Positions 7,404 to 21,955 of a stretch of 64,000 nucleotides of DNA are shown in pieces (position 1 is the first letter of the stretch; each line of letters starts with the position of its first letter). This stretch comes from Leishmania mexicana MHOM/GT/2001/U1103. Lineage: Eukaryota; Euglenozoa; Kinetoplastea; Trypanosomatida; Trypanosomatidae. The notes under the pieces are model-generated. The model did no database searches and was not told the DNA's origin. It worked only from the letters and a program-made list of their open reading frames with translations. Both the position numbers and the translations under genes were made by a program. Where the stretch lies: positions 520,222-584,221 of the forward strand of contig NC_018337.1 in the NCBI RefSeq assembly GCF_000234665.1. The letters are read 5' to 3'.

Positions 7404-10400
7404 TTAGTGACGCCGTGCGCTGTTGGAACGGAACGGAAATGTCTTGGACTTCGACAGCGGCGCCGCTGGGATCTTTGCCAGTTTGCCCAGCCCCGTGTCT
7501 GACACCTGTGCCAGCGTGCGACATGCATCATCGAGGTAGTCAAGTGCGCTTAGGAACAGTCGTTCGGGGCTGACCTTGAAGTCCTCACAGAGTGAGTCGG
7601 AGGAGCCCCTTTCCTGCGGCTCCGCGTCACGGCTCAGAGGGGGAGACATGAGGCTCGCACGCGCCCCGGCAGGGGCCTTGTTCGAAAGCCGCCCGTTGGG
7701 TGGCGAAATGCCGGGTAGAGAGGAGAAGCACGACTCGCGCGCGCTGCCCGATGACGAGTATTCGATGGCATGAAAGGATGTGCCGTGAACCCGCGCGCTA
7801 GAGGCGCTACGAGAGTTCCTCTGCGAGCCACTGCCGGCACTACCACCGAGAGGACCTGCGGGGCTACTGTCACTAGATATAGGTGGCGGGGCGACAGCTG
7901 TGACCTTGCTGCTTTGTCCGCAGCGTGGCAGCGGCAGGGCAGGTGGAGAGCGCTGGTCAACGCAGATCGCAAGCGCGTTCAGAAGCACCGTGATGAGATA
8001 CTTGGAAAAGTCCATGAAAAGCGCATACTGCTCGACGATTGCGGCTCGAGTAGTCACACGCGTCGCGGAGGAGGCCGCGGACGCCTTTGGGGGTGCAGCG
8101 TCCTTCGATCGCCGGGTGAGGTTCACACTTCCACGCGTGGCAGACAGCGATGTCGGCGGTGCGGGGATCTTAGTGGACGAACAATTTTCGGCACTCGTCT
8201 TGCTTCCGGCTGCGCCACCGGCAGCCGCACTGGTGGACCTTTCAGCCTGGAACACAGCCGGCAACTCACTCGCAGACTCGTCTGCCACGCCCTCCACTGC
8301 CTGGGCTAGCAGCTGCGCCGAGGGAAACATCTTGAGCAATTCCTGCAGCTCTGCCTGAATCCTACACGTCACCTCCAAGAGACCGAGATCCTTGAGGCGG
8401 TCAGCCGGGTGCGGCGTCACGGTGCTCCAGTCCGTGAGCGACGCAGCCGGCAGGGGATTGAAGGATTCTTCGGGCTCTACAAGCCACGCATGCTGCGCCA
8501 TCATAGCTGTTGGCAGTACCATGGTCTTGGGAAGCGTTGCCAATGCGAGGCCCGCCGTTTCCGTCGTGGCAGCCGCGGGTGTTGCTGACTCGAGCCTCCC
8601 GGTGTCGTCAGCCGGGACTGCACCATCATCCTCGCCGCTTGTGCTCTCCGCATTGCCTTCGGCCACCGAGGCTGTTGCCATCGCCAAGGCCGCCTCGGTG
8701 CGCTTGGCAGCACCAAAGGCAGTGCTCGTCGACGGCGGTATCAGCGCCAAGCGACCCTCGAGCCGCCGCGGCACAGAAGCCACGCACTCCTCGACAAAGA
8801 CGTTCGCTTTCACAGCCTTCGGTTCGCTATCACCCTGTGCCTTCTTGGCCTCCTCCGTTGTGGTGCTACTCTTCCTCTTGGCACCTTCGACTGAGTGAAT
8901 GATTCTCGGCGTCACCACCAACTCCATCCTTAGCTGCGCCAGCAGCAGTTTTCCGCTCGGGTGCGCGCCCACTGCGTTTAGCAGCGATCGACTAAGACGT
9001 ATCTCACCACCGCGCGCGTGCAGGCCGAGCACAAAGGTCTCATCCACACCAACACCGCTGATATGGACAACGCTCAAGGGCTCAGCGGTAGCGCTACCAC
9101 CGTCGGCACCGCCTTCACTCACTGCCTTGCTGCTGGCGTCGCTCTTGAGAGCTGGGGGCGAAGACGAGGAACACATGAAGCACCACATGTACTGGTCCGA
9201 CACATGGACGGAGATCTGAGGCCGAGGTCCGTTGAAAAGTACCGTGTGGGATTTTATGTCCTTCACATGCAGCGTCGATTCCAGCATGCGCAGTTCCTCT
9301 GGCCAGATCGATTCGACCATCTCTAGCTGGATTTGCCGCGCTGCCTCAAGCGCCATGGTGGGCTCCTCGAACACCACCAAGTACGAAGTCGTGGAGTTTG
9401 TCTTGGCCACGTAGCCGCTAAAGCTGCGCACAGCGTTCTGCACAATGTAGTTGTAGTGTGCCCAGACTAGCCTTAGGAGGGGTGGTGCTACAGACCGGGC
9501 GATCGCGCCAGCACCGGCGACGTCGCAGTAGAGAAACGCCAGGGGTTTTGTCGAGCGCCGAACATACATGAGGTCCGCCTCTACCTCTTCCACCGTACGA
9601 AACCGCACGGAACGGCGACGCGCAGGCACGTTCTCCGATTTCTCCTCTGCCTGGGGCTGGCACAGCAGCAACCACGGGCTGCGCAGCGGCGAGGTCGTCG
9701 CCATGCTGACCTCCCAGCCGCGCTCGTAGTTGTCCTCGGCGCTCATGCGGGCCATCTCACCAAGTTCCAGTCGGCGCTGCTGCTGTTCCATCATGTCGAG
9801 CACGCCTTGTCGTGGCAGCTCATCCCGGCGCAGCGTCAGCGCTGCCAGAACGGAACGGTAGGGTAGATACAGATTCTTGTTCTGCATGGCGGCCCTCCCA
9901 AAGTTGCGCAGCTGCTTGTGACGGTATGCAAAGGGCTTGGGCAGGATCGAGTGCACCATCGCCGGGGGGTCGTGGGAGCCGATGAACTGGGGTCTTTGCT
10001 TCACGATGTACTGTGTATCAAGCAAGTTCTCTTTCTTCGAGTAGAAGCTGCGGACAACGTCCTCCATGGCAAGAATTTCTCCGCTTTCGGCGAGGTCGCA
10101 CAGAGTACCAGAGAGGCGAATGGCCGGACCGGTGCACTTCAGCACACCGTTTTCTAGGTTGCGGTAAATGGAGGTCATGGGCCCGCTCGCCACGCCGGCA
10201 CGGAACAGGAAGACATCGCGACCCTTGCCCAGCGACGTGTGGGCGTACTTCGTGCCTGTGCGGTTGACCTTGATGTACATTTCAGACACAAAAGCAAGGG
10301 CTTGCTCGACCTCGCGAAACACGTACGTGAACACATCAGAGTAGTTGCCGCTCATGAGGAATCCAAAGTGCACCTTGGCGGCGTTGTGGATGTCACCACG

Positions 10401-12176
10401 GATGGTGTTCTGAATCGACTCAAACTGCTCATCCGAGATGCTCTTCAGAAGCAGCTGCTTCCAGATACTCTCATCACCTGTGTCGATGGTGCAGATATAG
10501 GCTGTCTCCGACGAATGCAGTGTTTTGTGCTTCCTGATCTCAAAACGGTCTTCGGACTCCATCATGTTCCGCTCCAGCGCCGCGCTAGCAGCCTCCGTCT
10601 TGCGATAGAGCGCTATGAGATTACTATTTTCTTTTTGCACCACAAAAAGTTCCAGCAGCTTGGCAGCGCTATCCGAGAACTCGGTGTTCGGCTCCTGCGT
10701 CGAGGTATGCAAAGGCGCCTTGACGACAGCGTCATGCCAAAAGTTCGCGCGGCGTCGCATCTGTTGCAGAATGACGTCACCACCCCCGTTCGACTTTTGA
10801 CGCCCCTCCTCTGGACCTTCAAAGGCGTCAGGGAGCATTCCTTTCATCCCCTTGACCACCATGCGCACCTCGGAGGCGCTGTCTTTCATCTCCAAGCACG
10901 GGTATTTGCGGCTCGGGTACAGAACGGATGCCTCCACTCCACGGCGACTGCGCAGTCCTGACGGCAGGATTGAGGCAATAATATGATGCGCACCAGGGAG
11001 CCCCACAACGTTCCACATAGACCCCAGACACTCACGCAGCTCGGCTGCGTTGCTCTCCGTCGGCACCGATCGATCCTCTCGCATCCGCGACTGCATGCAC
11101 ATGAGCTGCGCCCACTTCTCATTCACTACAATTTCGCCAATTGGGCACTGCTCAATGGCGGCCTGAACTGCTTCCGCGACCTCCGGTCCGAAAAAGGCGT
11201 ACTTTCCGGAAACAGGGTCTACGTACGACTCTGGCGAGCATGTAAAGATGCAGGTGTGAATGCGGGGCCCTTTGTATAACACCTTGTTGTTTTCAGTGAT
11301 GGTGGAGAATGCCGGCATACTCTCAATGCACGAAAACCACGAGAGGCGCACCAGCTGCTCGTGGCACTCCTTTGCAAACAGAAGCGCGTCAGACGGCGCC
11401 TGGAAGGCAAACACCTCCATGCTTTTATAGAACCCCACGCGGTAGCCACGGCAGCAGGAGCTGCTGTGAAAGAGAAGCTGTTGGTATACCCTCATGACGA
11501 GTTCCTCGATGTCGCCCAGAGGATATGTCACATTTGAGACAAAGTGAAAAACAAAGGAGACGTCGCGCTGAGGAAGCAGGATTGCGTCCCAGCGTTGCAC
11601 ATGATAAACATCATCGTGAGCTTCCATCAAGTTCGCCTCTGCTGCCTCGAGTCGGTGAAGCCCGGCTGCCCGCACTCGCGCAGCGATGCGACCGCGTTCA
11701 AACGCCACTTCGATACGATTTGCTTGTCGCTGCCGCAAGACATCGTCCCCTATGCGGGCCTTGAGCGAATCGTTCTCGCGCAGCAGTCTCTCATTCTCCT
11801 TTCTCAGCTGGTCAAGGCGATCGGTAAGGGTAATGAGCTGCGCCTTCGAGTCCGCTTCCAGCTGAATGAGTGAGCGCTGCAGTTGCTCGATTGTGTGGAT
11901 AAGTTCCTCATTCCAAATTGATATCTCCTCTATTGATGTATTTTTTAGGGCAGTTTTCTCCGCAGCAAAGGTGGATGAGAGTCCTTCATCGTAGGGAAGC
12001 AGTCTCCGGGATGTTGCCTGTGAAAGTCGCGCTCGCAGGTCGGCTATCTCGGCCTTCAACCCCTCTATTTGCTTTGCTGCCTCACGCTTCTCGATAATTA
12101 GGTTCGTCAGATGAGCATCCTTTTCCTTCATGCGCGCGTCCGCACCAGCGTCAGACATCACTGCAAAACCTTCCAT
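7404..12176 (-). CDS. Large protein with three tandem class III nucleotidyl-cyclase-like domains
   Basis: A 1590-aa protein. Residues about 10-170 form a coiled coil. Three segments then resemble the class III adenylyl/guanylyl cyclase fold: about 205-360 (VSFVFHFVSN, then YAFFGPEVAEAV and GEIVVNEKW), about 557-710 (YICTIDTGDE, then FRAGVASGPM, TGPAIRLSGTL and ESGEILAME) and about 877-1090 (LAFLYCDVAGAGAIA, then ARGGEIRLSRS). The catalytic pattern is degraded. In domain 1 the first metal-binding Asp is replaced (F-x-H), and the usual GD after the substrate loop is absent in all three. The C-terminal ~450 residues are Ala/Ser/Pro-rich and probably disordered. No transmembrane helix is obvious, unlike the receptor-type cyclases of trypanosomatids. 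The first codon of the longest frame is GTG, so I use the ATG at 12176; the ATG at 12158 is an alternative. A regulatory or scaffold role is inference. Confidence 0.72.
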   Translation of the reverse strand: MEGFAVMSDAGADARMKEKDAHLTNLIIEKREAAKQIEGLKAEIADLRARLSQATSRRLLPYDEGLSSTFAAEKTALKNTSIEEISIWNEELIHTIEQLQRSLIQLEADSKAQLITLTDRLDQLRKENERLLRENDSLKARIGDDVLRQRQANRIEVAFERGRIAARVRAAGLHRLEAAEANLMEAHDDVYHVQRWDAILLPQRDVSFVFHFVSNVTYPLGDIEELVMRVYQQLLFHSSSCCRGYRVGFYKSMEVFAFQAPSDALLFAKECHEQLVRLSWFSCIESMPAFSTITENNKVLYKGPRIHTCIFTCSPESYVDPVSGKYAFFGPEVAEAVQAAIEQCPIGEIVVNEKWAQLMCMQSRMREDRSVPTESNAAELRECLGSMWNVVGLPGAHHIIASILPSGLRSRRGVEASVLYPSRKYPCLEMKDSASEVRMVVKGMKGMLPDAFEGPEEGRQKSNGGGDVILQQMRRRANFWHDAVVKAPLHTSTQEPNTEFSDSAAKLLELFVVQKENSNLIALYRKTEAASAALERNMMESEDRFEIRKHKTLHSSETAYICTIDTGDESIWKQLLLKSISDEQFESIQNTIRGDIHNAAKVHFGFLMSGNYSDVFTYVFREVEQALAFVSEMYIKVNRTGTKYAHTSLGKGRDVFLFRAGVASGPMTSIYRNLENGVLKCTGPAIRLSGTLCDLAESGEILAMEDVVRSFYSKKENLLDTQYIVKQRPQFIGSHDPPAMVHSILPKPFAYRHKQLRNFGRAAMQNKNLYLPYRSVLAALTLRRDELPRQGVLDMMEQQQRRLELGEMARMSAEDNYERGWEVSMATTSPLRSPWLLLCQPQAEEKSENVPARRRSVRFRTVEEVEADLMYVRRSTKPLAFLYCDVAGAGAIARSVAPPLLRLVWAHYNYIVQNAVRSFSGYVAKTNSTTSYLVVFEEPTMALEAARQIQLEMVESIWPEELRMLESTLHVKDIKSHTVLFNGPRPQISVHVSDQYMWCFMCSSSSPPALKSDASSKAVSEGGADGGSATAEPLSVVHISGVGVDETFVLGLHARGGEIRLSRSLLNAVGAHPSGKLLLAQLRMELVVTPRIIHSVEGAKRKSSTTTEEAKKAQGDSEPKAVKANVFVEECVASVPRRLEGRLALIPPSTSTAFGAAKRTEAALAMATASVAEGNAESTSGEDDGAVPADDTGRLESATPAAATTETAGLALATLPKTMVLPTAMMAQHAWLVEPEESFNPLPAASLTDWSTVTPHPADRLKDLGLLEVTCRIQAELQELLKMFPSAQLLAQAVEGVADESASELPAVFQAERSTSAAAGGAAGSKTSAENCSSTKIPAPPTSLSATRGSVNLTRRSKDAAPPKASAASSATRVTTRAAIVEQYALFMDFSKYLITVLLNALAICVDQRSPPALPLPRCGQSSKVTAVAPPPISSDSSPAGPLGGSAGSGSQRNSRSASSARVHGTSFHAIEYSSSGSARESCFSSLPGISPPNGRLSNKAPAGARASLMSPPLSRDAEPQERGSSDSLCEDFKVSPERLFLSALDYLDDACRTLAQVSDTGLGKLAKIPAAPLSKSKTFPFRSNSARRH

Positions 12177-12547: not shown

Positions 12548-14293
12548 TCAACAGCCCTGCTCAATTTTCGAGTGATCTTTCTGCGGAGTGCCGTCCTCGT
12601 CATCGGCTTGCAGCTCGCCCTCATGAGCGCGGTAGGCCTTCCAGTCATTATAGCTCATGTGGTTGCTCTTCTTTTCCATCATACCACATGTACTAAAGCA
12701 GTAGTCACGCCAACGCGTATTGAACTGTTGTGCCTTTTCCTGATTGTCGCCAACGAGAGTGCCCATGGCCACTTTTGCTCTCGTATCACCGGGGACCATT
12801 TTCCCGAGCCGCTCCAGGAACACCGCGTTTTGCTCCACGGGCTCATGAATTTCAAATCCAAGATTGAAATCTTCAAAGAGGGTGCTCTTCCAGTTTTGCT
12901 TCACAAATTGCTGGAGTTCCTCGCGGCGGTTCGCGGGCATTTTTGTGAGCTTGTCGGTGTCCAACAACAGGCGAGCATACCAAGCGCACTTTGCCACGAC
13001 TTTGACGTCGCACATCATGGTGTTCAACTCCTCGGCCTGGGTGTAGCATCTCTTCATCTCCTCGTCATAGTAGAGGCGCAGAATTGAGTTACATTGCTTA
13101 CATACAGGTAGATAATCGCCGTCCAGTGCGTGTTGATGAGGCGGCGGCATGAATTTTCGAAACGACGGGGGCGTTATAGCGTGGCGCAGGAGCCCCCTGG
13201 TGCCCAAACAACAAGCACAGCTTGGGATTTTGGACTCCACTAAGGCTGCGGCATCTGCCTGCAGCTCGCTCACGCCGTGGGCAAATGGGCACTGGTCTTG
13301 CAGCTCACAGACCCCCAAGGCATGATACATGCAAAGCCGCGTTTTCACTTTCGGATCAACCAAAAGCTGTATCTCAAGAGCTTTGCGGGGATCGCGCTTG
13401 ACATGCTTCGTGATCACCGCCAGCTTCTTTTCCATCACGTAGCATTTTGCCCTTCCTGGCGAGCACTCGAATAGAAAGTTTCCGTTCCTGTCCAGTACAC
13501 GCACTTTGGTGCCGCTGCGGATCTGCGCTAGGAGTGCATCGCCGCCACTGATCTCGGATGCGGGGCACGCTTTTTTCTCCTTTTCGGAGTCCGATTTTAA
13601 CATTTCCCGCTGCAGTTTCTTCAGCTCCATTGCCGCCTTCGACGAGGTGCGCTGGAGCCACTGCGCAACATCGAAGGCGTCTGCGCTCATGTTGGTCACC
13701 TCCGATGCCTTCTGCATCACGGCCCGGCCGACCAAATAGGAGGCCAGTGCGTCTTCCGCTGCATAGTTGACCCTGCTGTCGGAAAGCGGCAGTTCCCAGT
13801 TGCTGCGTGTAATCATCTTGTCCTTCTCGATAGATAAATTGGCCACACTCTTCGCAAGTACTTTCAGGTTTGATTGTGCACCTTGATGAAGGCCAAGCAG
13901 TGCGCTGTAGTGAGCTATGTCAAGCACACTCTGAATCGTGATGTTCTGCTCTTTTTGGAGGCGCGAGACATCGCCGCTTACACCGACCCCACATTTTATA
14001 ATGCTCGGGTCACAGAGCGCCTCCTTCACGGCGGCGGGCAAAATGCGGCCGTCGAAAAAGCTGATGTGAAGCACGAAGCAGTGGCTGGATGTTGCGAATT
14101 GAACGACCGCCAGCGGCAAGTCGCGGAACCACTCCGAGTCCATCCCCATTATTTTCAAATGCACCGGCTGCTGCCGCAGAGTCTGCATCATCTCTGCCCA
14201 TATACGCTCTCCATAGGATAGCCAGGCCGCGCTAGTGTCCACAAAAACACCACACACCCTGGCCGCGACCACGCTCGATGTTATAGTTTTCAT
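12548..14293 (-). CDS. EXD2-like 3'-5' exonuclease with CCCH zinc finger
   Basis: A 581-aa protein. Residues about 10-200 are a DEDDy 3'-5' exonuclease domain of the WRN/RNase D type: GMDSEW gives D52 and E54, VSGD gives D107, and Y-x3-D gives Y176 and D180. A CCCH finger follows at C320, C328, C334 and H338 (spacing 7-5-3). A C-terminal Cys-rich module (C358, C360, C361, C397, C400) contains RHAITPPSFRKF and LPVCKQCNS, which resemble the zinc-binding part of human EXD2 and its plant relatives. The enzyme should remove nucleotides from DNA or RNA 3' ends; the CCCH finger favours RNA. The longest frame begins upstream at a TTG codon, so I chose the first ATG, 14293. A pyrimidine tract and AG lie just upstream. 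Whether it acts in the mitochondrion or nucleus cannot be read from the sequence. Confidence 0.82.
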   Translation of the reverse strand: MKTITSSVVAARVCGVFVDTSAAWLSYGERIWAEMMQTLRQQPVHLKIMGMDSEWFRDLPLAVVQFATSSHCFVLHISFFDGRILPAAVKEALCDPSIIKCGVGVSGDVSRLQKEQNITIQSVLDIAHYSALLGLHQGAQSNLKVLAKSVANLSIEKDKMITRSNWELPLSDSRVNYAAEDALASYLVGRAVMQKASEVTNMSADAFDVAQWLQRTSSKAAMELKKLQREMLKSDSEKEKKACPASEISGGDALLAQIRSGTKVRVLDRNGNFLFECSPGRAKCYVMEKKLAVITKHVKRDPRKALEIQLLVDPKVKTRLCMYHALGVCELQDQCPFAHGVSELQADAAALVESKIPSCACCLGTRGLLRHAITPPSFRKFMPPPHQHALDGDYLPVCKQCNSILRLYYDEEMKRCYTQAEELNTMMCDVKVVAKCAWYARLLLDTDKLTKMPANRREELQQFVKQNWKSTLFEDFNLGFEIHEPVEQNAVFLERLGKMVPGDTRAKVAMGTLVGDNQEKAQQFNTRWRDYCFSTCGMMEKKSNHMSYNDWKAYRAHEGELQADDEDGTPQKDHSKIEQGC

Positions 14294-14298
14294 GTGCT

Positions 14299-14345
14299 CT
14301 ACGACAACCAAAAGGGTAGAATAAGGAAGGGAGCGAGAGAGAGTG
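14299..14345 (-). promoter_or_regulatory. Likely spliced-leader acceptor for the exonuclease gene
   Basis: Minus strand: a CTCTCTCTCGCTCCCTTCC-like tract (complement of about 14322-14345) is followed by GTAG at 14302-14299. This gives a very short 5' UTR before the ATG at 14293. An upstream AG would lengthen it. Confidence 0.4.
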
Positions 14346-14392
14346 TATCTAAGATTCCTCCGCTGTGAGGTCAATGCAATCCGATTCGCGGT

Positions 14393-18203: not shown

Positions 18204-21200
18204 CTACACCACGCCTAGGTCGTGCTCCACGGACCACTCCTGCAAGTTACCCAGCGAATCGCCAAACTTAGCTGTCACACTCAGCGGTACGAGCAACTGC
18301 ATGGCGTGCGACATCGCTGAGGACACCAGCGGCACCACCATCGGGAGCAGCTCCTTGCGCACCATGAAGACCATCTCGTCGTGGATCTGCGAAAGCAGGG
18401 ATACGTCGGAGCGATCGTAGCGCTGCAGCACCTCCTTTGACACGGCAAGCATCGCCATCTTCATCACGTCTGCCGCGCTGCCCTGCACGACGCTGTTGAA
18501 GGCCTGCCGTTCCGCATACGACCGTCGCGAGAGCACCGTGCTGCGGATGTCCGGCAGGTACCTCAGGCGACCGCTGAGGGTGCGCACGAACCCATTGGCG
18601 CGGGCTTCCTCGACGACGCGGCGGTGATACGCGTCGATGCCGGGAAAGGCGTTTGTCAGCAACGAGGTGATGTGCAGCGCCCGATCAACCGTAACGCCCA
18701 TGTGCGTCGCAAGCGTCTTGGGGCCGGCGCCGTAGAGCACACCAAAGACGACGCGCTTGGCCAGACTGCGCTCCTCAGTGCTTACGGGCTTCTTCTTGAA
18801 GACCACCTCGGCGATCGCCCGGTGAATATCTGCCGACGTCGTCAGTGCCTCTACGAGTGCGGCGTCGCCGCATAGGTGCGCTAGTACGCGTAGCTCGATC
18901 TGTTCGTAGTCAATGGACAAGAGCACGCATCCGCCAGCGGCAACGAAGCAGCGCCGAAAACCCAAGAGGTCATCATCGCCGTCCTCCTCGGCGTCATTGC
19001 CTGCCACGGCGGCTGTGATGCCATTACGTGGAAGATTCTGAAGATTCGGCTCAACGCAGGATAGCCGTCCAGTGTCGGTGCCTTCCTGAAGAAAGTTTGG
19101 GTGCAGCGTGGCGTACCCCCTTGCAGGAAGAATAACCTCGCCCGCCGGCGTCGCGTTTGCATCCTCTCGGCTGCTCCGTTGGTTTCGTGCTGGCATTGGC
19201 TCGGCGCTGCTAGTGCCGTATCCGTTGCTGCTCGTGTGAAGCCAGCGATCTACAAACGGGCTGTCGTCGTTCATGTCCACCGCTTCTCTTATAACCAGCG
19301 GCGACACGGCCTTGGCGCCCTCATCATTGTCGTGCGCCTGCTGCCGCCCCTCCGTGCTCTCACTGGTCCCCGCCTCAGCGTTAACGCCGTCGCGACAAGG
19401 GGCTGGGCTTGCTTGTGCCCTAGAGCGCACCACGGCGTAGCCCATCATCCCTTCGACGTATGTCTGCATCAGCTTCGACACCTTGCGATAGCGCAACAAG
19501 CACGCAGGAAACTCGTGATGCCGGGCGAGGGCACGCAGTGTATCCTCCGCCGTTGACAGCCGCCCCCCTTTTGTGACTGTGAGCCCAGTGGCGCCGACGG
19601 CTTCGCCATTTCCGGATTTGAGCAAGTATTTGCCCAGCTGAAGCACCTCGTAGAGTGCCTTGCGGCACTGATCGTGGCTCTGAATATTGAAGTCCTCGCC
19701 AAGCTCCGGGACAAGTTTGCTGGCAAGTCGGCGCTGCTGTGCCATCTCCGCCTCGCAGCTCTTCTCGTAGCGGTGAACCTCGTGCAGATCCACGCGCATG
19801 CCATTGTACTTCAGAAGCGCCAGCAGGAGCGCAATCCGCTTCTCCTGCCGCAGGAACGCTTGCAGGAGCCCTTTGCTGCCCAGCAAACCGTAAAGACTGC
19901 GGTACACAGTGGCCAAGTAGTACACTTGATGGGCTAGTTGGCACTGTGCGGACGTTAGGGGCGGCGCGGGGGCTGCTGTTGCGGCGGCGGCGGCAGTCCC
20001 GATGCTTTCGGCAAAAATGGTCCTTGAGTGCGAGAAGCACCCTGCGTTGCTCACGTTCTCCAGCTGCACTGTCGGCGGCAGCTTCCCGCTACAAACGTGC
20101 AGGAGCAACTGACTGTAGTCGTAGAGGACGCTCGTGTCCGCGTCACTCGCCCCGTCCGCGGCGGCGGCGGAGCCTCCCCCCGCTAAAGCGTGCACGGCGG
20201 GAGGAGCCTTCGACAGAGTACTTGCCACGTGCAGCTGAGCCATCCACGCCATCACGCGCACGTCGCTGACACAGTTCGACCACAATGTGCCCTTGCAGTA
20301 AGCGAGTAGCGCCACCAGGAGCACCTGCGCATTGAAGGTAATGAGCTCCACCCCAGGTAGCTCTGTGAGAACGCGGCACAGAAACGCCAAGCCAACGGTC
20401 TGTGCCGGCAGCGCGTACATGTCGTCTTTCCACCGTATCAGAACAAGCTCCAGGTGCTGGTGGCTACGCACGGGGTCGAGGGAGGAGAAGCAGCACGACA
20501 CGCGGCGCTTAGCCGTCTTGGCGCCGCTGCTGTAGCAGGTAAAGTTCGTGCGGGACTCCACCCTCGCGAGCGCCGCTGCCGTGCTGGTATTGCCAGTGAG
20601 GGCCGAAACGCCGACAAACAGGGGTGGTGCTTGGATGCGATCCGGGTCGTTGAGGGCACGGCGCACGTCGCTGAACAGCTCCTCGGCCGATTCCTGCAGA
20701 TAGATGTAGGGGACAGAGACCGTGGCCGCCGCGGTGGGTCCATTCTGCAGCTCCGCCATCGCGCCCCCGCCAGCTTCGGAGGACGTCAGAGAGAAAAGCG
20801 TGCGAGGAGCCGGCATCGCACACACAGAGGGGTCCAGGGCACCAGGAAGGATTGCGTCGCCCCCACTCCGCTTCCTCGTCTTCGGCTTCCTCTTCGCAAC
20901 GGAGGCGTCAGCAGCGGCATTCGTGCCGGCACCATCGCGCCTCCGTGCTGTTGGCTTGCTTCGTGCGCCGCTGCCGGACGCGCCCCGGTCTTGCATGACG
21001 GCGCCGGTCTCGTCTCGCGTGCTGCCCACGTTTGCTTCCGCCCTCTCGTCGCGGTCATTGCTGTGAGCTGCCTTCGCATCCCTCTTCCGTTTCTTGCCGC
21101 CCCAGTGCTTCGCTGTCCACAGGGATGATCCGCAGTCGCCACTGACGCTGCTGTTGCGTTTTGGAGGCCCACACCTTTGCTCCTCAGAGCTGTGCTGCAC

Positions 21201-21872
21201 CTTCTCTGATAGCTTTGCCAGCTCCGCCTGCAGTCGAAAGATGACGTCGGTGCAGGCGGCGCCGCTTGTGTCAGGGGCCCGCTTGGGCAGCGTAACCAGC
21301 GCTGGACCGGGGATGCGGGTGCGCGGCGGGGCCGCCTCGGTTTGCCGTTGGCACGTCGCACTCCCGCCATTCGCGGCGTGCTCGTCATCGTCGCTCACCA
21401 CGACTACTTCGTCGTCGTGAGCAGAGTTCACCGCCGCTGCAGTTCTGTTCCGGCGGCGCTCGTGTAGCAACTGGACCCCGTCCCTGTCGTCGGCGCTTTC
21501 CTCGGGGCGAAGACGGGCGGTGGTTTGTGGCTGCTGCTGCTGTTCTGGTGGAGGTGACGGCCGCGACGAAGCCGCCGACCCAATCTGAAGTCCGAACTGA
21601 TGCCACTTCCGTACATTCCGTGTTGTTTCCTCGCTCTCAGGTAGCTTATGAAAGCTTGGCTGCATCCATGCAGCAGTGTCGCTCTGAAGGACCCCTGAGG
21701 CGAGGCCGCCAGATGGCTGTGCGCCGATGGCAGAGGAGGAGGACGCACTCCCATCAGGGAAGGACCAGGCAGACCCAGACGGCTTGGCCCCGGTCGTGGA
21801 GGTGAGGTGTGTCATCGGCACCATGCGAAAGGCGTGGCGCGGGAAATCGGCCGTTCGCTGAAACGGGTCCAT
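18204..21872 (-). CDS. Family A DNA polymerase, Pol theta-like, without helicase domain
   Basis: A 1222-aa protein. The C-terminal third is a complete family A polymerase: RLSCVEPNLQNLP, motif A SIDYEQIELRVLAHL near residue 986, motif B KRVVFGVLYGAG near 1040, QGSAADVMKMAM, and motif C LSQIHDEMVF near 1160. The catalytic Asp of motifs A and C are present. Before it come a thumb-like segment (STAEDTLRALARHHEF, MQTYVEGMMGY) and a degenerate exonuclease-like region without obvious metal ligands. About 260 N-terminal residues are low-complexity, basic and Ser/Ala-rich, with KR-rich candidate nuclear signals near 265-350. No helicase is fused, unlike animal Pol theta; monofunctional Pol theta-like enzymes have been described in Leishmania. 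Likely role: translesion synthesis or end joining. The longest frame starts at GTG; the first ATG after a strong acceptor is 21872. The mitochondrial Pol I-like family is the main alternative. Confidence 0.85.
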   Translation of the reverse strand: MDPFQRTADFPRHAFRMVPMTHLTSTTGAKPSGSAWSFPDGSASSSSAIGAQPSGGLASGVLQSDTAAWMQPSFHKLPESEETTRNVRKWHQFGLQIGSAASSRPSPPPEQQQQPQTTARLRPEESADDRDGVQLLHERRRNRTAAAVNSAHDDEVVVVSDDDEHAANGGSATCQRQTEAAPPRTRIPGPALVTLPKRAPDTSGAACTDVIFRLQAELAKLSEKVQHSSEEQRCGPPKRNSSVSGDCGSSLWTAKHWGGKKRKRDAKAAHSNDRDERAEANVGSTRDETGAVMQDRGASGSGARSKPTARRRDGAGTNAAADASVAKRKPKTRKRSGGDAILPGALDPSVCAMPAPRTLFSLTSSEAGGGAMAELQNGPTAAATVSVPYIYLQESAEELFSDVRRALNDPDRIQAPPLFVGVSALTGNTSTAAALARVESRTNFTCYSSGAKTAKRRVSCCFSSLDPVRSHQHLELVLIRWKDDMYALPAQTVGLAFLCRVLTELPGVELITFNAQVLLVALLAYCKGTLWSNCVSDVRVMAWMAQLHVASTLSKAPPAVHALAGGGSAAAADGASDADTSVLYDYSQLLLHVCSGKLPPTVQLENVSNAGCFSHSRTIFAESIGTAAAAATAAPAPPLTSAQCQLAHQVYYLATVYRSLYGLLGSKGLLQAFLRQEKRIALLLALLKYNGMRVDLHEVHRYEKSCEAEMAQQRRLASKLVPELGEDFNIQSHDQCRKALYEVLQLGKYLLKSGNGEAVGATGLTVTKGGRLSTAEDTLRALARHHEFPACLLRYRKVSKLMQTYVEGMMGYAVVRSRAQASPAPCRDGVNAEAGTSESTEGRQQAHDNDEGAKAVSPLVIREAVDMNDDSPFVDRWLHTSSNGYGTSSAEPMPARNQRSSREDANATPAGEVILPARGYATLHPNFLQEGTDTGRLSCVEPNLQNLPRNGITAAVAGNDAEEDGDDDLLGFRRCFVAAGGCVLLSIDYEQIELRVLAHLCGDAALVEALTTSADIHRAIAEVVFKKKPVSTEERSLAKRVVFGVLYGAGPKTLATHMGVTVDRALHITSLLTNAFPGIDAYHRRVVEEARANGFVRTLSGRLRYLPDIRSTVLSRRSYAERQAFNSVVQGSAADVMKMAMLAVSKEVLQRYDRSDVSLLSQIHDEMVFMVRKELLPMVVPLVSSAMSHAMQLLVPLSVTAKFGDSLGNLQEWSVEHDLGVV

Positions 21873-21918
21873 GTCGAGCTGCGCACGCCACCGCGCAAGG
21901 CCAGATAATCCCCCGTGG

Positions 21919-21955
21919 CTACAACGAAAAAGGAAAAGAGGCACTCAAAACAGGG
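21919..21955 (-). promoter_or_regulatory. Likely spliced-leader acceptor for the polymerase gene
   Basis: Minus strand shows a TTTTCCTTTTTCGTTGTAG-type signal, AG at 21920-21919. The first downstream ATG is 21872, in frame with the polymerase. Confidence 0.65.

Follow-up and report, generated by a model that had tools for sequence, protein, structure and literature searches.

A probable non-catalytic protein with three tandem degenerate class III cyclase-fold domains in Leishmania mexicana and other trypanosomatids

The gene at positions 7404..12176 (minus strand) of the window, the whole 64,000-nucleotide stretch of Leishmania mexicana DNA that was analyzed, should encode a pseudo-enzyme, whose three tandem class III cyclase-fold domains would not be expected to produce cyclic nucleotides through the known mechanism. 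Computation showed to which family these domains belong, which residues they have lost, and that they are conserved from Leishmania to Trypanosoma congolense. Because every catalytic set is incomplete, the protein would very probably be a non-catalytic scaffold or regulator. We lean towards the narrower reading that the old active-site cleft of this non-catalytic protein may still be useful for a ligand or a partner.

Domain layout and membership of the cyclase family

The coding sequence starts with an ATG at 12176 and terminates with a stop codon ending at 7404. The minus-strand frame contains no internal stop and encodes 1590 amino acids plus the stop. Residues 1-190 (11607..12176, minus strand) form a probable coiled coil, since the weak Pfam and PDB matches of this stretch are mostly of coiled-coil types, in agreement with the coiled coil named in the initial annotation. 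It is followed on the same strand by pseudo-cyclase domain 1 (residues about 200-410, 10947..11579), domain 2 (residues about 553-750, 9927..10520), and domain 3 (residues about 873-1092, 8901..9560).

The C-terminal tail comprises residues 1093-1590 (7407..8900, minus strand). S, A, P, T, and G make up 51% of it, and no more than 8 of its 498 positions agree across 20 or 21 of the 21 orthologs. Two short, better-conserved pieces were observed in this otherwise poorly conserved region, one around FSKYLITVLLNALAI (residues 1387-1404, window 7965-8018) and one around ALDYLDDACR (residues 1544-1553, window 7518-7547), both on the minus strand; these are possible binding motifs. The highest 19-residue hydropathy mean of the protein (1.56, at residue 1388) also lies in the tail, just below 1.6, the customary cut-off for a transmembrane stretch. 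By hydropathy, no convincing transmembrane stretch was found in the 1590-residue protein, and the earlier description of it as soluble was supported as probable. Upstream of the gene, open reading frames on the same strand (window 12548-14374 and 18204-21944) matched a 3'-5' exonuclease domain and a family A DNA polymerase in Pfam, and their function shows no obvious connection with the pseudo-cyclase.

Pfam and NCBIfam scans recognized no cyclase in the 1590-residue protein and gave mostly weak matches of coiled-coil types. Thus, the three-cyclase reading proposed earlier concerns something that the standard libraries miss. Single-sequence scans against Pfam, NCBIfam, and PDB sequences returned mostly coiled-coil noise, and a Fis match among them was discarded as a chance match. 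At E-values up to 1, PF00211 matched none of the sequences P0001-P0015 and none in five of six further orthologs, with P0021 left out. The PF00211 search of the whole genome (32.0 Mb, 545 contigs) yielded seven cyclase matches among the best candidates scored, and even at E-values up to 10 the pseudo-cyclase gene was absent from these candidates.

To compare profiles, 70 class III cyclases were collected, consisting of 63 bacterial loci and the seven of the L. mexicana genome. Selection of the bacterial set relied on motifs of intact enzymes (FTDIE and others), so that it represents a sample of such enzymes and not all class III cyclases. Domain profiles were built from the 21 orthologs, and each E-value refers to a single profile pair, not to a database search. 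Domain 1 matched the cyclase profile with a probability of 94.9 (E 4.4e-8), domain 2 with 93.7 (E 2e-7), and domain 3 with 98.7 (E 3.3e-16), which bears out the three class III cyclase domains of the initial annotation. Negative controls gave E-values of 0.59 for the coiled coil, 0.63 and 0.39 for the two linkers, and 0.17 for the tail.

The excised domains 1, 2, and 3 scored 57.5, 53.0, and 109.2, compared to 19.1, 20.1, and 21.6 for the best column shuffles; none of 100 shuffles reached the observed score for any domain. In an unguided scan of the whole length, matches occurred only at residues 203-361, 583-746, and 876-1072 (E 1.8e-6, 8.4e-5, and 4.1e-13), and the next E-value was 0.46. These positions agree with the segments at about 205-360, 557-710, and 877-1090 that had been singled out by reading the sequence.

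The links between the domains themselves were less even. Shallow profiles from 15 orthologs connected domains 1 and 3 (E 2.6e-5) and not domain 2, and with 21 orthologs domain 2 had no direct match to domain 1 or domain 3 (E 0.025 and 0.035). A PDB search with the 15-ortholog profile at E-values up to 10 returned 12 sequences. Five of these were cyclases (E 0.39-1.6), all aligned to domain 3 within residues 869-961 and none significant alone, and the other seven were unrelated proteins matching coiled-coil stretches.

Predicted structures were compared for the same domains. The first model, covering residues 185-1100 and based on 15 sequences, was poor overall (mean pLDDT 45), with domain 1 usable, domain 3 partly modelled, and domain 2 unusable. 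Domain 2 folded alone with 21 sequences gave a usable model. In Foldseek and VIA-align searches, class III cyclases accounted for all 50 matches listed in each search, both for the first model (mostly domain 1) and for the domain 2 model, and 1fx2 and 1fx4 were the best matches of domain 1 among those listed. In the predicted structures, domains 1 and 2 have the class III fold. Matches to human AC9 and AC5 that spanned domains 1 and 3 had rmsd values of 13.1-13.8 and were rejected as evidence for the relative position of the domains.

The low identity to cyclases in the profile alignments, only 12-17%, could also be expected if the resemblance were that of a generic ferredoxin-like fold with no cyclase ancestry. 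This explanation is hardly credible given that the matches are collinear over 158-170 columns and beyond the reach of the shuffles, and that no other ferredoxin-like family appeared among the structure matches listed. Furthermore, one pairwise search of the genome with P0018, a distant relative, recovered genuine cyclases together with pseudo-cyclase domains 3 and 1 (E 9.9e-5 and 0.0064).

Catalytic residues, conservation, and age

Six catalytic positions were taken from the profile alignment and then read in the 21 orthologs. In domain 1, most orthologs have none of the six residues. The first metal aspartate position is occupied by Tyr, Phe, and others, the purine lysine is Gly in 17 of 21, the second metal aspartate is Gly or Ser in 16 (Asp in 1), and the purine aspartate is Ala or Ser in 20 of 21. 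The asparagine position is mixed, and the arginine position is Gln in 10 of 21, Arg in 1, and otherwise mixed.

Domain 2 showed a different pattern. Asp565 (codon 10482..10484, minus strand), the equivalent of the first metal aspartate, is Asp in 21 of 21 orthologs, and Asp614 (codon 10335..10337, minus strand), the equivalent of the second, is Asp in 20 of 21. The other positions have changed: purine lysine to Asn or Ser in 19 of 21 (Lys in 1), purine aspartate to Cys in 20, transition-state asparagine to Arg in 19 of 21, and arginine to Thr or Ala in 19. The assignment of Asp565 is to be read with caution, as it is the first aligned residue of the domain 2 match and lies outside the whole-length match beginning at 583; that of Asp614 likewise, as the domain 2 hairpin is one residue longer than in cyclases. 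In the domain 2 model, the first predicted strand (558-565) ends with Asp565, and Asp614 comes immediately before the third strand; these are the places where the metal aspartates of cyclases sit.

Domain 3 retained other residues. Lys925 (codon 9402..9404, minus strand), the equivalent of the purine-binding lysine, is Lys in 19 of 21 orthologs, and Asp885 is present in 16 of 21; the T. congolense ortholog lacks both. The second metal aspartate is replaced by Thr, Val, and others, the purine-aspartate position is His in 13 of 21 and Asp in 6, the asparagine is Asp or Glu in 20 of 21, and the arginine is Val or Ile in 15.

None of the three domains has the transition-state asparagine at its aligned position in any of the 21 orthologs. 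The transition-state arginine is likewise replaced throughout in domains 2 and 3, and in domain 1 a single ortholog of the 21 has it. By this reading of the alignment, the full catalytic set is complete in no domain, and no pair of domains supplies both the asparagine and the arginine. The earlier statement that key catalytic residues look lost was right in that the set is incomplete in every domain, but the loss is not uniform, as domain 2 has kept its two metal aspartates and the purine lysine is still present in domain 3. Lack of fold similarity and intact catalytic residues, either of which would speak against the initial annotation, were both checked, and the outcome was in its favor. An ordinary active cyclase was ruled out by the residue table over the 21 orthologs.

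An atypical cyclase or another nucleotidyl-transfer enzyme, active through a site at the interface of domains 2 and 3, could draw on the two metal aspartates of the former and on the purine lysine of the latter, together with its purine aspartate in 6 of 21 orthologs. Cyclase-type UniRef names ("adenylate cyclase", "adenylyl cyclase", "guanylate cyclase domain") on 7 of the 16 rows of a protein search (one of the 16 being the query itself) would fit such an enzyme. Nevertheless, the replacement of the asparagine and arginine across the orthologs makes it very improbable. The names indicate that automatic annotation noticed some resemblance; the activity they imply finds no support in the residues, and they could lead annotation transfer astray. 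The residue table therefore serves as a correction to the automatic "adenylate cyclase" names on the relatives.

Twenty other proteins aligned over the full length, with 30-92% identity over the searched regions, and all named ones are trypanosomatid. The hosts include Leishmania, Porcisia, Novymonas, Leptomonas, Phytomonas, and T. congolense (30% identity). Among the named relatives, the closest comes from Leishmania major, with 91% identity over the region searched. T. congolense was the only Trypanosoma among the matches of a protein search that relied on shared short words. An artefact or a pseudogene was ruled out by the full-length open frames in 21 proteins.

A domain tree was calculated with 66 of the 70 cyclases and 8 of the 21 orthologs, among them that of T. 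congolense. Domains 1, 2, and 3 each formed one clade, with support values of 1.0, 0.998, and 0.853. As each clade includes T. congolense, the three-domain form predates the split between Leishmania and Trypanosoma. Deep branches are unsupported (e.g., 0.08), so that the order of duplication is not readable from the tree. Recent duplication of a single domain was ruled out by the low similarity among the domains (16-18% in local alignments) and the old clade of each.

Conservation was then compared between the segments lining the cleft and the rest of each domain. In domain 2, the values were 0.85 and 0.75, and 4 of 198 circular shifts reached the observed value. The corresponding values were 0.73 and 0.60 in domain 3 (12 of 220 shifts) and 0.78 and 0.70 in domain 1 (20 of 211 shifts, not beyond chance). 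This pattern suggests that the cleft is under constraint, clearly in domain 2 and weakly in domain 3. At least 20 of the 21 orthologs agree in 19% of domain 2 columns, and the chance retention of both aspartates is about 0.04 as a simple product; because of this background, their retention is suggestive and not decisive.

Relatives in the genome and the proposed role

Six of the seven cyclase matches in the genome (L001-L006) are taken to be receptor-type adenylate cyclases. The seventh, L007 (C28:28752-29234), is presumably a HemAC-like cyclase with a presumed globin part; all six catalytic residues are present in it, and the genome would thus have another cyclase type alongside the receptor cyclases. 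An extra alpha3-beta4 loop (Delta-subdomain) marks the receptor-type cyclases; the alpha3-beta4 length, measured from the hairpin to beta4 and set by hand, is 53, 44, and 56 in domains 1, 2, and 3. The same distance is 54-71 in the cyclases of this genome and 29-38 (median 35) in the bacterial cyclases, where it was measured in 23 of 63. By length alone, the loops of domains 1 and 3 fit the cyclases of the genome, which may point to an origin from such cyclases.

In the P0018 search, the genuine cyclases had E-values of 4.9e-7 to 0.28, and a gene on contig 5 was found at 4.5e-7. This gene (C5:14470-17388 = L084:2471-5389, plus strand) encodes a protein of 972 amino acids with one degenerate cyclase domain. 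The frame shows long coiled coils by eye, and its start codon may be later than the first ATG. A PDB search at E-values up to 10 gave only two matches, both GRESAG4 cyclases (1.1e-5 and 1.9e-5), and PF00211 did not match the protein. The six catalytic residues are lost, as judged by eye on the alignment. The next listed open reading frame downstream of this gene presumably encodes a major vault protein.

P0016, P0018, and P0019 constitute a third, distant group of relatives, with coiled coils by eye. Five cyclase-like stretches were detected in P0018 by profile scan (E 3.1e-12 to 2.3e-4; next 0.27). PF00211 gave 16.0 bits for P0016 and 16.1 bits for P0018, against a curated cut-off of 21.9. 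A protein search with P0016 matched only P0016, P0018, and P0019.

On these data, a mechanism can be proposed for the non-catalytic protein. Through the coiled coil the protein would dimerize, and its domains 2 and 3 would pair head to tail like mammalian C1 and C2. The proposed pair follows from the residues kept: the metal aspartates in domain 2 correspond to the C1 role, and the purine lysine in domain 3 corresponds to the C2 role; the purine aspartate that domain 3 also keeps in 6 of 21 orthologs adds to its C2 likeness. We regard such pairing as possible, at somewhat less than an even chance. The composite cleft of the two domains might hold a metal-nucleotide or similar ligand, with no turnover because the transition-state asparagine and arginine are gone; ligand binding at this site is a tentative and rather doubtful proposal. 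Binding of the ligand or of a partner would then alter the shape of the scaffold. The roles suggested in the initial annotation, sensing of a cyclic nucleotide or bicarbonate or dimerization with real cyclases, are hypothetical.

A purely structural role, for example in the flagellar or subpellicular cytoskeleton, would treat the folds as protein-binding, dimerizing blocks with no small ligand. The probable coiled coil with tandem domains suits it, as do the loss of all six residues in domain 1 and the contig-5 relative, in which long coiled coils, judged by eye, likewise accompany a degenerate domain. What it leaves unaccounted for is the retention of the domain 2 metal aspartates in 20-21 of 21 orthologs and the better conservation of the cleft-lining segments of that domain, and we consider it unlikely, though deserving of attention.

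Alternatively, a pseudo-domain could pair with the catalytic domain of a receptor-type cyclase and activate or silence this putative partner. The longer alpha3-beta4 loop of domains 1 and 3, as in the cyclases of the genome, would be in keeping with this. According to PMC6027212, dimerization of the catalytic domain is required in trypanosome cyclases, and PMC9481589 describes T. brucei CARP3 as binding a receptor cyclase only with the catalytic domain present. However, the latter source calls CARP3 helical, with no sequence homology outside Trypanosoma; for this reason its value as a precedent is confined to the role. Regulation of genuine cyclases by this route is a distinctly improbable explanation.

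Returning to the non-catalytic protein with a useful cleft, a broader picture can be drawn. There could be a coiled-coil pseudo-cyclase family, consisting of the three-domain protein and the one-domain contig-5 protein, in which the dead domains act as nucleotide or metal sensors, the cleft of domains 2 and 3 binds without conversion, and the five-domain arrays are an extended version. This picture is speculative and on balance unlikely.

Comparison with known systems

No description of three tandem dead cyclase domains in trypanosomatids was found by title or abstract in the open-access literature; this absence is weak evidence, because only open-access work was covered and the gene identifier was not used. 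G-protein-coupled receptors are absent from trypanosomatids according to PMC8519429, and heterotrimeric G proteins are likewise absent, with cyclase activation there little understood, according to PMC6027212. In trypanosomatid cyclase signaling, the conserved pseudo-cyclase protein, whose three dead domains escape the standard libraries, is a candidate organizer or sensor.

In receptor-type adenylate cyclases, an extracellular part and a transmembrane helix go with a single catalytic domain that contains all six residues (PMC6027212). The pseudo-cyclase protein shares with this type (GRESAG4, ESAG4, and Leishmania RAC) the class III fold and, in domains 1 and 3, an alpha3-beta4 loop of similar length; the best structure matches of domain 1, 1fx2 and 1fx4, belong to this likeness as well. 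Unlike them, it has cyclase domains that are degenerate and three in number, and it shows no clear membrane anchor.

The initial annotation had regarded trypanosomatid cyclases as one-domain receptor types. This holds for the receptor cyclases but is too narrow, since HemAC-Lm is a soluble, heme-containing adenylate cyclase of trypanosomatids (PMC4534343). The pseudo-cyclase resembles it as a probably soluble trypanosomatid protein with the class III fold. It differs in that HemAC-Lm joins a single catalytic domain to an N-terminal globin, and L007, the presumed gene of that type, has the six residues; Pfam gave no globin match in the pseudo-cyclase.

Cyclase-like accessory domains are already known in trypanosomatids, because T. 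brucei membrane kinases (RDK1 and others) are reported to bear them (PMC8519429). The likeness lies in the use of a cyclase-like domain as an accessory module. The transmembrane kinases have a membrane anchor and a kinase domain, whereas no protein kinase match was found in the pseudo-cyclase by Pfam.

The arrays of P0016, P0018, and P0019 differ in having five domains, with no one-to-one domain correspondence firmly supported by the tree, and they are similar in their tandem degenerate cyclase-like domains and, by eye, their coiled coils. ADCY10 is a soluble cyclase with several cyclase domains per chain and divided roles. In mammalian cyclases, the metal role belongs to C1 and the nucleotide role to C2 (PMC6027212). 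The pseudo-cyclase departs from the mammalian transmembrane adenylyl cyclases, which are C1/C2 pseudo-heterodimers, in its three domains and in a composite site that would be without the transition-state asparagine and arginine. Like them, it carries several domains per chain, and by the residues kept, domain 2 is C1-like and domain 3 is C2-like.
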